Source: Aristolochia californica (taxonomy: Eukaryota; Streptophyta; Magnoliopsida; Piperales; Aristolochiaceae). From it: a DNA stretch of 64,000 nucleotides. A model generated the notes under the pieces. That model was not told the origin of the DNA and searched no databases. It saw only the letters and a program-made list of their open reading frames with translations. The stretch spans positions 11,303,758 to 11,367,757 of the forward strand of contig JARWKL010000009.1 of the NCBI GenBank assembly GCA_029961685.1, read 5' to 3'. The first letter of the stretch is position 1. The number at the start of each line of letters is the position of its first letter. A program made the translations under genes and the position numbers. Positions 36,773-57,905 of this stretch are shown here, one piece after another.

Positions 36773-37451
36773 AAGATGTGCAAATATCTGGAAAAAAAAA
36801 TTCCATATTGCCTTGTGACAAGAAAGGTGTATGAAAGGACCCGAAAATGTAAATAGCTAATGTCCATTAGGCTCAAGAAATAAGCATTGAAAGGGAAGAC
36901 CTATCCCTTCCCAGAACTGGTGGAGGATATTGCTAGATTTGAATTTCTAGATTTTTTTGGGAAGGGCATTGAGATGGCCTTGAGCATTATCTATATCAAT
37001 TTTAGGAAGTTTTAATTTAACTTACTCAACAATTCCTTAGGTTGAACAAGACCAAGACGGTGGTTTGGTGGACAAGAAGAGAAGAATTCCTTTGGTGAGT
37101 ATTAGGAGGAAGTTTCGAAGGTTTCTAATACTATTAACTTAAATTGCATTTCTCATTGTATCGAAGTTGGCATTTGGATGGAAAGGACTGAATGAGAAAT
37201 GGAATCTGTTTGCTCACACAACTTCAGATTGGACGTTTTGATGGTTTCAAAGTCTGGTCACATAAATTGTATTTTCTCACTGTATGAAAGTTGGAATTTG
37301 GATGATAAGGATTGAATGAGAAATGGAATCTATAGAGCAATATTGTCTGGTTGGGAGTGTAGAGAGGGCACAAGATATTTACGAGAAAGAAAGACATATG
37401 GCATCAGTTGGGGCTTGCAGATTACATCTCACCACTTAAAACACAATTATA

Positions 37452-37640
37452 AAGGTTTTTGCAGATGCCAAAATGTGGCAATTGGCATGGAAAATAACAG
37501 AAGAGATGGTCTCATATGGTGTTAGTCCTAATGTTGTCACCTGGTCATCATTGATAAGTGCCTTTGCCAAAGCAGATCTAATGGAGCATGCAATTCAGAC
37601 ATTTGATGAAATGCTCCTCTCTGGCTATGAACCTTCATAT
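37452..37640 (+). pseudogene. Captured PPR-protein fragment
   Basis: VFADAKMWQLAWKITEEM, then SYGVSPNVVTWSSLISAF and QTFDEMLLSGYEP, form more than one P-type PPR unit (the 35-residue helical repeat of organellar RNA-binding proteins). It runs in frame straight into pyrophosphatase sequence at about 37641, an unnatural fusion. It ends where the PPR consensus GCEP..would continue. Confidence 0.8.
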
Positions 37641-38042
37641 AAGCGGCAACTTCTAATTTCCACCATTTTTATGACTATTTGGATTGCAATTGTCAGCTAC
37701 ATTGCTCTGCCATCCAACTTCACCCTCTATGATTTTGGAGTTGTGAAACCAGTTAAGAATTGGCACTTGTTCTTCTGTGTTGCTATTGGATTGTGGGCTG
37801 GACTCATTCTTGGATACACAATGGAGTATTACACTAGCAATGCTTACAGTCCTATGCAGGATGTTGCTGCTTCTTGCAGAACAGGGGCAGCAAAAAATGT
37901 AATCTGTGGCCTCACACTAGGTTACAAGTTTTTCATAATTCTACTTAGGTTTCAGTCTTGCTGCCATATATAGACTTTCTGTGGCAATTTTGGGAATGTT
38001 TAGCACAATTACAACCAGGCTTGCGCTTGACACCTATGGATT
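37641..38042 (+). pseudogene. Captured vacuolar H+-pyrophosphatase fragment (type I)
   Basis: The reading frame gives NWHLFFCVAIGLWAGLILG, EYYTSNAYSPMQDVA, SCRTGAAKNVICGL and LGYK. After a small deletion and frameshift it gives SLAAIYRLSVAILGM and LALDTYG. These are consecutive segments of the K+-dependent (AVP1-type) proton-pumping pyrophosphatase of the tonoplast. Only about 130 of about 770 residues are present and no start or stop belongs to it. I see no intron within the piece, which would fit capture from a spliced transcript if the source gene has introns here. The frameshift lies near 37930-37950. Confidence 0.9.
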
Positions 38043-38330
38043 CAAGGGGGAGGAAGATCATGTAGCTTTTGTGGTTGACCTACTTGGCCACAGTGAGTAC
38101 CCTGCAGCAGCAACCAAAGTGATAGAGGATTACACTGGCCAGACTGGGTGCTGGCCCAGCATATCATCCACGGTTTTTATTGTTGCCTAAAAACTAGTGA
38201 TGCACATACCATCAATTCTAGATCAATTTACTGTAGTGGGTTTACTCATGGCTAGCGCGAATCTGGGTGCATTACATCAAGGGAAACTCTTGTAGGCTTT
38301 CATCAAGAGAGATTTTAACTGCCCCCATTC
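38043..38330 (+). pseudogene. Captured PPR fragments, second pair
   Basis: Positions 38043-38135 read EEDHVAFVVDLLGHS and AATKVIED, resembling the E-domain end of PLS-class PPR proteins (EDHYACMVDLLGR..). Positions 38229-38330 read DQFTVVGLLMASANLGAL with a stop codon within KLL*AF, another PLS-type unit. The two pieces are out of natural order and separated by unassigned sequence, so they probably represent separate captures or an internal rearrangement. Confidence 0.65.
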
Positions 38331-38339
38331 ACACTACTT

Positions 38340-38635
38340 TACAGAAGCTGAGGTTCTCACTGAAATTTGTGCACGGCTATTGGTGGCTTACTTGCATGAA
38401 TATGCATGTGAGGCTTATGTTGCTGCTCTCTATTATGGGATAAACAATACAGGAAGTGGAAAATAGATGCAAATGTTTTCAGGCAAACTATTTTCAGTGC
38501 CAATTGAACCTGATCTGGGTCCAAGCCTTGGAGTTGCTCGTGTCCCAGGAATTGGACTTATTTACACAGAATTAGTCAGAGCCTTAACCAGTACTGTTGC
38601 GGTTGCGTGTGGATTTCACAAGGATATGTAGAGTG
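38340..38635 (+). pseudogene. Captured KUP/HAK/KT potassium transporter fragment
   Basis: LGPSLGVARVPGIGLIYTEL (38508-38575 region) matches the conserved RVPGIGLxYxELVxG segment of plant KUP/HAK/KT transporters. Before it, 38350-38460 keeps an open frame (EICARLLVAYLHEYACEAY) that I cannot assign, followed by a stop. The piece stops matching shortly after TELV. Confidence 0.65.
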
Positions 38636-38639
38636 ATCC

Positions 38640-39018
38640 GAGGTCAGTAGTTTATGCCAAAAAAAAGAGATGGTACACTGACAAAACTTGGGTAGAGAAC
38701 AAATCAATACATTTTAGTTCCCTATTTTGTTAACTTTTCGCATTGGTGGGTTCATTCTCACATTGGTTTCCGAAGATTATGGTGGAACATCTTGTTGGCC
38801 AGTCATGGTCTTGCCATATTGGAGCAGGTGATAGTTTAGACTATTGTTTGGTTGCTTGACCATGTGGTGGATTGCTGCAACGAGTAATGCTGGAAGTGTG
38901 GGATTCTCACCCAAAAAAACAATTTTCTGGAGTAACACTCTGTCAACGGGGGCAACCAGTGGTGGATTTCGGATACCGCAATCTCTCCGTCCGTGGTGTT
39001 ACATTGGAGCGCTTACAC
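38640..39018 (+). other. Unassigned interior of the element
   Basis: No domain is recognised. The 38844-39149 frame is open but its first two thirds do not resemble a known protein; only its end is gypsy polyprotein. Confidence 0.4.
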
Positions 39019-56389: not shown

Positions 56390-56640
56390 AAGGTCATTCT
56401 TCTCGGCAACGACGGTGCGGGGAAGATCTCGTTGATAAATCAATGGGTCGTGCTAGCAGATGCAAACAAGAAAGACCAAAAACCCAAAATCTTTGATTTC
56501 ACAGTGGAAATTGTTGCCTTGGCGGAAAAAGAGAATTCCGGCAGTAAAATTAAACAATTGTTTCCCCTTATCTCAATTTGTTTCTCACATGTTGTTCGTT
56601 ACAATGGTAAACACCAGCCAGAAAATGGGCTATCGGAGAA
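56384..56640 (+). pseudogene. Captured Rab-type GTPase P-loop fragment
   Basis: LKVILLGNDGAGKISLINQ reads from 56388, with the P-loop at 56405-56428, matching the N-terminus of Rab7/RABG-type small GTPases (LKVIxLGDSGVGKTSLMNQ). The P-loop threonine is isoleucine. After about 20 residues the frame stays open (56432-56980) but no longer resembles a GTPase, so another source or drift follows. Confidence 0.6.
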
Positions 56641-56832
56641 ATGGTGTCACAGTGGATTCTGGTGTGCCGTCTCTGCTTTACTATCCTGGTTGTGGTCTTG
56701 TTTCTGTGCAGGCAGTGGCCAATCTTTGAAGGAACCTTCATTGAGAAGATCAACTACTTCATCACCGTTGGTGCTTACAACTAATTCTTGCGAACCTTCA
56801 GAGGTCGTTTGTGGAACAAATCCTTTGGTTAA
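56630..56832 (+). pseudogene. Captured membrane-protein N-terminus (S-acyltransferase-like?)
   Basis: In one frame this reads ILVCRLCFTILVVVLFLC, a clear membrane helix, then QWPIFEGTFIEKINYFITVG and, after a stop, FLRTFRG. It resembles the N-terminal part of a subgroup of plant DHHC protein S-acyltransferases as I remember them. That assignment is tentative; the helix and conserved-looking run are what is seen. Confidence 0.35.
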
Positions 56833-57020
56833 CATGTATTCAGCCTGCAGAGATGTAGTGTCCGCTCGAACACTGTTCTATGAAATTATTCTACTAGGTC
56901 TGGTTTCTTGGAATTATATGGTGTACAGTTATGCAAAGTGTGGGGCTAAGGCGTCTCTACCAGGTAGCTATTCGACTTAATGCCGGAACGCGACGTTGTA
57001 GTTGGTGGACCGCCACCTAG
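56815..57020 (+). pseudogene. Captured PPR fragment (PLS class)
   Basis: NPLVNMYSACRDVVSARTLF, then LVSWNYMVYSYAKCG and, in a shifted frame, FDLMPERDVV. These are the diagnostic phrases of PLS-class PPR repeats (LVNMYxKCGDVxxARxLFDxMPxRDVVSWN). Confidence 0.85.
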
Positions 57021-57125
57021 CCTCTATATGTCATTAGTGGCCGTGGGGATGAAACCATAAAATCAAAGTGCCCATAAAATCAATGGCGCACCTGTATCTT
57101 CTTCCCTACAAATGCCTGGAACACA

Positions 57126-57370
57126 GTGCATATACAGGAAAACTTTTGGGTGTTTCCATAATTAGAGTGACAGTGAATATATGGCTGGTCAGCTTTGAGC
57201 ATTTGGACATGTAATGCGTGATAATCCAGAGGAGGTAGATCCTTGGTTCACTAATACGTGTACTGTGAAATCTTCTAGTCCATCAGCCAAGGAAACTTTA
57301 AATTCAAAATGCAAAAAGGATGGTATGTCCCTTGTAGTGGCTGGATGTGTGTCTCAAGGAAGTAGATACT
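57126..57370 (+). pseudogene. Captured CDKAL1-like tRNA methylthiotransferase fragment
   Basis: IYRKTFGCFHN, a stop, SDSEYMAGQL, a stop, then DNPEEVDPWFTNTCTVKS and VVAGCVSQGSR. This is the N-terminal UPF0004 domain of CDKAL1/MtaB-type methylthiotransferases, which modify t6A37 of tRNA. All three cysteines of the UPF0004 cluster (TFGC, NTC, AGC) are still visible. The radical-SAM core that should follow is absent. The sequence leaves the family after SRYLKEV-GGISI. Confidence 0.88.
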
Positions 57371-57777
57371 TGAAGGAGGTTGGAGGGATTAGTATAACTG
57401 AAGTGCATACACTGTTCTGGAATGCTCTAGGTGCTTGCCAGATATATGTAGAAATGCTAAGAGGTATTAAGACAGGAGCTGGGAGCATGGTTGAAATCGT
57501 GCAAATTGATAGGGGAGGTGCAATGGAAATTTTGCACTCTATATCAATGGGAAGGCTTCCACTTGCCGAGGGAATGAACGCCAATTTATCTGCTACTGCT
57601 ACAGCAATTCGCCAGAGAGCACTAATTGCTCTTTGTGAGTCATCTCAGAAGAATTATAGCGACGTTGTTGCTGCCAAATCAGACCTAAACTATATTGGTC
57701 AGCAGATAGAGAAAATACTTCAACTGAAGAATTATATTGTTGTTTGTGAGAACATAATCAGGTATAGAATTATATTC
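57371..57777 (+). pseudogene. Captured coding-like sequence, PPR-like then unassigned
   Basis: EVHTLFWNALGACQIY resembles the WNALLGACRIH phrase at the end of PPR proteins. The following ~95 codons stay open to the LTR (LPLAEGMNANLSATATAIRQ, YIGQQIEKILQLKNY) and look like a real helical protein, but I cannot name it. The fusion with the CDKAL1-like piece is in frame (open from 57214). Confidence 0.5.
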
Positions 57778-57905
57778 TCCTAAACGAACTTAGGGTTGTG
57801 CGTTCTCCTAGACGAACCTAGGGTTTTCAAGCTTCCATTCGGCTTGATTCTTCTCTTATCTTCTTCTTCCCTACGAATCACTGTGTTAGATCTGGGACCG
57901 CAACA
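57778..57905 (+). repeat. Truncated 3' LTR of element II
   Basis: Corresponds to the last ~128 bp of the 5' LTR and ends GGGACCGCAACA. The first ~245 bp are missing, so the gene fragments run directly into mid-LTR sequence. Confidence 0.85.

Follow-up and report, generated by a model that had tools for sequence, protein, structure and literature searches.

The window analysed here is a stretch of 64,000 nucleotides from Aristolochia californica (C511:11303758-11367757, in a host assembly of 659.6 Mb) that carries two groups of plant gene pieces adjoining the same long terminal repeat (LTR), at 37341-39498 (copy I) and at 55413-57905 (copy II). We consider it quite probable that both groups derive from a single LTR element of about 4.7 kb, which entered the genome in one insertion event and was later split up and copied by segmental duplication, and that this element belongs to a genome-wide lineage whose members carry different chains of host-gene pieces on the sense strand, likely copied from spliced mRNAs via serial template switching.

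Two fragments of apparently one element

In nine duplicate copies, copy II (55413-57770) runs on through approx. 190 bp that are absent from the window into copy I (37341-39498) as one contiguous sequence, and the LTR is completed by the counterpart of 57775-57905 wherever the fetched stretch extends so far. These copies came from a genome search with the copy I LTR, in which 40 of 1764 first-look candidates were scored: 13 match at 99% or more, 27 match at 91-93%, and all but one lie on C511. Ten 10-kb stretches were fetched around the 91-93% class; nine span the site, and the tenth (L037) represents another region. One copy (L034) begins inside the copy II part and still continues through the approx. 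190 bp into copy I, and three (L035, L036, and L040) carry approx. 1.6 kb of additional inserted sequence at 38096-38103. The full element measures 4657 bp in L032.

Eight of the nine contiguous copies have the same left flank, the ninth starting within the element; eight likewise have the same right flank, the ninth not being covered by the fetched stretch. The copies with shared flanks include one on the unplaced contig C351 and the copy at 12.05 Mb of C511. On the left, the 5-bp flank is TACAT in the window and TACAC in L031, L038, and L039; on the right, it is TACAC in L032 and L033 and TCCAC in the window. Because the flanks are shared across copies, a single insertion was apparently multiplied within a segmental-duplication array. 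The distance between the two LTRs of a copy (Kimura two-parameter distance of 0.105-0.136 in six copies, in two of which the 3' LTR is clipped by the end of the stretch) is to be set against a difference of only 0-2% between copy I class copies and the window, and the insertion therefore predates those duplications. An LTR pair value of 0.027 for L034 was discarded, as two neighbouring 3' LTRs had been compared.

In copy II, all sequence between approx. 57770 and the middle part of the 3' LTR is gone, a few filler bases mark the joint, and only a 128-bp stub remains of the right LTR. Copy I is the 3' half and has no left LTR; its left cut falls within a PPR piece, its right cut lies about 25 bases before the end of the LTR, and its junctions with array sequence show overlaps of 3 bp (TAT) and 2 bp (CG). 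The window apparently contains, then, the 5' half of one LTR element of about 4.7 kb, with an internal deletion, together with its truncated 3' half. The original prediction had noted the common LTR, and this stands (39142-39498, 55413-55786, and, in part, 57775-57905 are 85-91% alike). It had also taken the two fragments for two elements with different cargo, and this has to be given up, since they follow each other as the two halves of a single element in nine copies. A segmental duplication that the LTRs happen to flank, which it had named as the outcome that would speak against it, comes close to describing the window pair and does not describe the lineage. What looks like two sets of cargo lying side by side in a window can turn out to be a single element split by segmental duplication.

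The copy I fragment occurs in 13 copies, arranged in two arrays of opposite orientation on C511 around 8.59-11.34 Mb. Three copy I pairs are mirrored around one point (9.8098-9.8099 Mb) within 30 bp, with spacings of approx. 84.4 and 100.3 kb; the arrangement suggests that a large segment was duplicated as a palindrome.

Host-gene pieces of the window element

All mapped parts of the element lie on the plus strand. The 374-bp 5' LTR (TGTTAT...ATAACA; 55413-55786) is followed by a leader (55787-56142; no profile scan) that starts with the primer-binding-site (PBS)-like TGGGTATTAGAGC; relatives have TGGTATCAGAGC or near variants, and we take both versions to match initiator tRNA-Met. The first cargo piece (56387-56530) appears weakly P-loop/Ras-like. 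It is followed by an unassigned piece and a PPR-like piece ending in ...MPERDVV (together 56531-56991), by a CDKAL1-like methylthiotransferase piece that begins at approx. residue 6 of the host protein (56992-57408), and by an unassigned helical piece (57409-57770); dispersed relatives, too, have the CDKAL1 and helical pieces joined. The deletion joint (57771-57777) marks the loss of the approx. 190 bp, of the copy I chain, and of the start of the 3' LTR; the leftover 3' part of this LTR occupies 57778-57905, and the right flank starts at 57906.

The chain is taken up in copy I by a PPR piece (37341-37637), whose 5' end falls in the approx. 190 bp held only by relatives, and by a piece of type I vacuolar H+-pyrophosphatase (V-PPase; 37638-38034), in which one internal deletion shifts the frame. 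An unassigned part (38035-38343) comes next; here, 38194-38292 gave no Pfam family, and 37945-38187 gave only a weak V-PPase end. A peptidase M16 middle-domain-like piece (38344-38463) and a KUP/HAK-like piece (38464-38628) complete the cargo. A stretch read by eye as the tail of the element's own pol (TFELEEALSPLGG-like), without a Pfam family, and a polypurine tract (PPT) lie at 38960-39141, and the 3' LTR at 39142-39498 is short by about 25 bases of its 3' end at the duplication breakpoint.

The identification of these pieces varies in strength. PPR and V-PPase are firm, as had been predicted: at 37473-37973, PPR is recognised by Pfam (PPR_2, 2.2e-16) and V-PPase by both Pfam (6.9e-17) and NCBIfam (8.5e-33). 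The predicted CDKAL1-like piece is supported, with a match to UPF0004 that falls below the Pfam cut-off in the window (6.3e-4) and reaches 1.2e-14 in the relative L047; moreover, it matches a named A. californica radical-SAM/UPF0004 protein (P0121). The peptidase-M16-like piece, which was absent from the earlier list, is weak (Pfam 1.6e-4, below the curated cut-off; 3.2e-4 in L032). Four further predicted pieces are readings by eye only: the Rab-like or, more broadly, Ras-like piece (Pfam Roc 0.052, Ras 0.089), the KUP/HAK-like piece (38467-38625; no family in Pfam or NCBIfam), the PPR-like piece of copy II (Pfam PPR 0.012), and the second PPR of copy I, which is without profile support in Pfam. 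The predicted membrane-protein piece is left without an assignment, as is the helical piece, which gave no convincing match in Pfam, NCBIfam, or PDB, and PDB searches with the CDKAL1/helical piece and with the peptidase-M16-like piece gave no match.

A lineage of related LTR elements

An LTR-end pattern, allowing up to two mismatches, has 2100 matches in the genome (one for the backward control), and a pattern spanning the LTR-PBS junction has 2930 (control, none). The sample was drawn from 13 LTR pairs with both LTRs on the same strand: five retrieved by the LTR-end pattern, L042 being one of them, five by the LTR of L042, and three by the LTR of L047. L041 gave no second LTR in self-comparison and was dropped, which leaves the 12 elements described below; candidate pairs at C2:21413929/21415391 and C13:26728577/26742567 (14 kb apart) were left out of the sample.

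In the sampled elements, the two LTRs stand in direct orientation, a PBS follows the 5' LTR, and a PPT precedes the 3' LTR. The outer LTR ends are 1.7-8.0 kb apart, L045 (1.7 kb) being near the limit of terminal-repeat retrotransposons in miniature (TRIMs); a partial inner LTR is present in L055. Perfect 5-bp target site duplications (TSDs) in L042, L044, L045, and L054 show that the insertions at separate loci are independent. TSDs match at four of five bases in L043, L057, and L058; seven of the 12 pairs thus have four or five matching bases, and the other five are unresolved. The elements have a leader in common, sections of which match up to approx. the first 1.4 kb of the L042 interior, and directly before the 3' LTR, 12 of the 16 scanned loci show a tail that reads like TFELEDKLVLPGG. 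The host pieces sit between the kept leader and the kept tail. No Ty3-type domain was found by Pfam in the 50 sense pieces scanned (see below), only a short pol-tail-like motif read by eye. L042 (C1:61247300-61251800) is apparently itself inserted within a Ty3-type reverse-transcriptase frame, which by eye continues on both sides.

Host-gene cargo in the sampled elements

Stop-free pieces of at least 85 residues number 81 in the sense and 53 in the antisense orientation in the 12 elements. Of the sense pieces, 50, most of them chosen from beyond the leader, were compared with Pfam at a match threshold of 1e-3. Host families were found in 17 of them, 15 at or above the Pfam cut-off and two slightly under it (VSR_TRX in L056 and PPR in L057). 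The families are RRM, beta-galactosidase, GH31, NAP, E(z)-type CXC, HSP70, vacuolar sorting receptor, glutamate synthase GXGXG, and PPR. L059, whose pieces gave no host family in Pfam, contains elongation factor 2 (PDB 1.5e-22; NCBIfam 6.1e-13) and sucrose-phosphate synthase (NCBIfam 3.2e-21); a PDB search with the latter piece gave no match despite the NCBIfam match. By contrast, Pfam recognised no host gene among the 53 antisense pieces, only one copia-type RVT_2 and one DUF4617.

Host-gene pieces thus lie on the element strand in 11 of the 12 LTR pairs, and at least five of the 12 hold two or more host genes by profile or BLAST: L042 and its sister L053, which have the same chain, L054, L058, and L059. 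The strand bias that had been noted holds in the sample as well, host domains being sense only among the scanned pieces, and so, in this sampled version, does the expectation that the interiors of LTR pairs across the genome would carry different cargo. The broader claim, that one family captures multiple genes repeatedly, survives in part: its argument from the window fails, other LTR-bounded loci do carry other host genes, and "one family" gives way to a lineage of related families.

Piece sharing and possible recombination between copies

Many of the pieces of the window element are dispersed. In searches of which the best 150 candidates each were scored, several to many places were found for PPR, V-PPase, CDKAL1, and the helical piece, each by itself, and for three joined forms, namely CDKAL1-helical, PPR-V-PPase, and a shortened PPR-V-PPase fusion. 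The pieces are also combined differently from one element to another, and their upstream boundaries vary: CDKAL1-helical is joined to glutamate synthase in L046 and L047 and to PPR-V-PPase in L048, and the CDKAL1 piece starts at approx. host residue 6 in the window element vs. approx. residue 23, after the lineage leader motif, in L046 and L047. It is here that the main rival explanation has its place, according to which there were few old captures and the diversity has since arisen mostly from recombination between copies, deletion, and decay. It may explain much of the piece sharing, as many elements have RRM, CDKAL1-helical, PPR, V-PPase, or glutamate synthase pieces in common and the 3' joint of CDKAL1 is identical in L046-L048 and the window element. 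As an account of the whole lineage, however, it is rather unlikely: the 12 elements contain about twelve host genes, among which elongation factor 2, sucrose-phosphate synthase, NAP, GH31, and HSP70 each occur in one sampled element only, and the kinesin-light-chain-related piece of L054 appears to be recent because it is still 94.6% identical to the host gene over 1132 nt.

Missing introns and the origin of the cargo

In comparison with the host V-PPase gene at L062, two GT-AG introns are missing from the window V-PPase piece, the exons being joined precisely. Interruptions at similar positions divide four host V-PPase loci, whereas the dispersed cargo copies are unbroken. In the case of EZ3, the host gene (C111:2458816-2459656) is split at residues approx. 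58 and 100 of a 162-residue query, the next matching exon ending at approx. 132, and a paralogue on C221 is split in like manner; the EZ3 cargo, represented by 14 of the 28 matches and located at other loci, is uninterrupted over at least residues 24-153. Intron loss is shown for these two genes, and the cargo was likely copied from spliced mRNAs. For both, what is found between the LTRs is exon-only, sense-strand host sequence, as in the maize element Bs1, and not the intron-bearing capture of Pack-MULEs and Helitrons.

It could be argued that the pieces entered as DNA, through a Helitron, a Pack-MULE, or end-joining filler, and that LTRs came to flank them later; in maize, Helitrons and DNA transposons are reported to capture more gene fragments than LTR elements (PMC2774510). 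Such an origin is nevertheless very improbable, given the missing V-PPase and EZ3 introns, the position of the host domains found on the element strand, and the seven of 12 LTR pairs with TSDs matching at four or five bases.

Chimeric frames and joints

L054, the LTRs of which are 96.9% identical, contains a stop-free frame of 832 codons in which kinesin-light-chain-related residues 1-387 are fused to EZ3 residues 201-554, followed by a beta-galactosidase-like end (by eye). Further copies of the kinesin-EZ3 chimera, interrupted by stops, lie at C2:26.42 Mb and on C478. Counted by codon position (first/second/third), changes number 20/18/20 between the kinesin piece and the host gene and 47/45/29 between the whole frame and the C2 copy, and neither of these counts gives a sign of purifying selection on the frame. 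That the chimeric frames are functional genes under selection, with the LTRs incidental, would agree with open frames of about 500-830 codons; it is hardly credible in view of the evenness of the first comparison, the lack of third-position bias in the second, and the stops in most other copies of the L054 frame. Least credible of all is the initial interpretation of two separate family members, each with its own captured chain, that came to lie in one window by chance: the same LTR does adjoin different pieces at two places, but both chains are consecutive in nine copies, and copy I, without a left LTR and with 2-3 bp overlaps to array sequence, and copy II, ending in a deletion joint, look like fragments.

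Some two dozen loci on C329 and C500 (e.g., C329:24757616 and C500:17047281) contain an EZ3-derived piece without the kinesin part. The piece corresponds to sequence within residues 403-600 of the L054 frame; some of the loci have open frames of up to 650 codons, and they constitute another dispersed subfamily.

Short overlaps occur at the joints. About 2 nt are common to the leader and the kinesin piece in L054, and probably about 4 nt to the kinesin and EZ3 pieces (GATG). In the window element, PPR ...MPERDVV and CDKAL1 ...EDVVVGG have DVV in common, at the protein level only and with the PPR side read by eye.

Likely mechanism and points against it

Intron-less pieces on one strand, between a kept leader and a kept tail and within LTR pairs, seven of 12 with TSDs, are what would be expected from template switching during minus-strand synthesis, and serial template switching is the likely mechanism of capture. 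A helper element would supply gag-pol in trans, and host mRNAs would be packaged together with element RNA. Minus-strand synthesis would start on the element RNA, switch from mRNA to mRNA, and return to the leader; later switches between element RNAs could reshuffle the pieces.

A number of observations weigh against this account of a once-inserted window element and a lineage of mRNA-derived chains. The search with the copy I LTR was thinly scored (40 of 1764 candidates), and L034 contains a second copy that starts inside the approx. 190 bp, lacks the copy II part, and is truncated somewhat like copy I of the window. The LTR of the window element is only 63-77% alike to those of the 12 sampled relatives. 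This is below the 80% rule for family definition used in PMC2774510, and we therefore refer to a lineage of related families and not to one family. L057-L059 are not wholly unbiased, as the LTR used to find them came from L047, which had been selected on account of its cargo. With respect to the cargo, 31 of the 81 sense pieces (30 of them leader) fell outside the scan, none was found in L045, and L043, L044, L052, L055, and L057 each hold one firm gene. L056 was removed from the multi-gene count because an inner LTR-like stretch separates its two pieces, so that it may be two elements. Several pieces of the window element have no significant profile match in Pfam or NCBIfam. The V-PPase gene at L062 is only 66-75% like the window piece and is not necessarily its parent, and the intron tests for kinesin light chain and glutamate synthase are uninformative because their probable parents are unbroken in the compared stretch. 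Finally, host-parent DNA at a joint was read for one gene only, and no helper element was identified.

Setting of the element in the window

Repeated segments make the window a patchwork: in self-comparison, for instance, 1-7897 and 28760-36773 are 95.5% alike, and 19599-27080 and 39492-46932 are 93.5% alike. The insertion lies in or beside a gene-like stretch spanning 53785-55412 and 57906-59560, with an NT-C2 domain exon on the left, outside the element (54100-54258, plus strand; Pfam 3.9e-7), and a coiled-coil-like stretch, read by eye, on the right (58950-59255; zero families in Pfam). A Ty1/copia element with RVT_2 and SH3_retrovirus domains occupies 42205-47584, its LTRs (42205-42529 and 47270-47584) being 92.6% alike, and 22325-27604 is a duplicate of it. 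5S-rRNA-like stretches are present at 28165-28276, 28441-28551, and 48099-48211 within short direct repeats (Rfam E 0.006-0.095, below the gathering score), the last of them adjoining a TGGTATCAGAGC site; these repeats probably represent a Cassandra-type TRIM. Runs of G or C in the assembly, approx. 30 or longer, occur at about 42307-42335 and 57937-57974.

Comparison with known systems

Bs1 of maize is an LTR element in which pieces of three host genes form a chimeric frame (PMC13317346), the cargo consists of exons only (PMC4717578), and the copy number is low (PMC2774510). The Aristolochia elements resemble it in that they are LTR elements with pieces of host genes, exon-only in the two genes compared. 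Unlike Bs1, they form a large lineage, the sampled members of which have different gene sets, and about eight pieces can be read by eye in one element, PPR, V-PPase, and CDKAL1 among them being backed by profiles. The soybean TRIM GmaRetroS15 also resembles them, as it carries exons of three host genes, without introns, between LTRs and with a 5-bp TSD; gene-bearing soybean TRIMs, however, measure 1.2-1.4 kb and comprise 30 elements in seven of 289 subfamilies (PMC4717578). The Aristolochia elements span 1.7-8 kb (4657 bp for L032, beyond that TRIM size range), and cargo was found in 11 of the 12 sampled. Among 425 LTR elements with gene fragments in maize B73, none is reported to carry more than one standard nuclear gene (PMC2774510), and counts of LTR elements with captured genes are available for rice and sorghum (PMC3726574). 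Host gene fragments lie between LTRs in all of these plants, and several Aristolochia elements, unlike those of maize B73, hold more than one host gene. Pack-MULEs and Helitrons carry host-gene pieces as well; Pack-MULEs contain both exons and introns (PMC4717578), in contrast to the two Aristolochia genes compared, the introns of which are missing. No report of such a lineage, or of gene capture in Aristolochia, was found among the papers listed by full-text searches of the open-licence literature. To our knowledge, neither Pack-MULEs nor Helitrons have an LTR, a PBS, and a PPT.

Most known cases of gene capture by plant LTR elements are isolated or rare, which has made the mechanism and rate of capture hard to study. 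With thousands of LTR-PBS matches, datable LTRs, and host genes in the same genome, the lineage would allow captures to be counted, pieces to be dated, microhomology at the joints to be measured, and the question to be asked of which mRNAs get packaged. In a magnoliid, it would moreover provide exon fusions from a natural source. A wider proposal, to which we would give about even weight, is that the A. californica elements are mosaics of host messages in which multi-gene chimerism is the rule and not, as in Bs1, an accident: the leader and tail would be kept for packaging and priming, and the interior would be repeatedly rewritten by copy-choice from packaged mRNAs and from other members of the lineage, yielding thousands of combinatorial exon fusions, some with frames of 500-830 codons.

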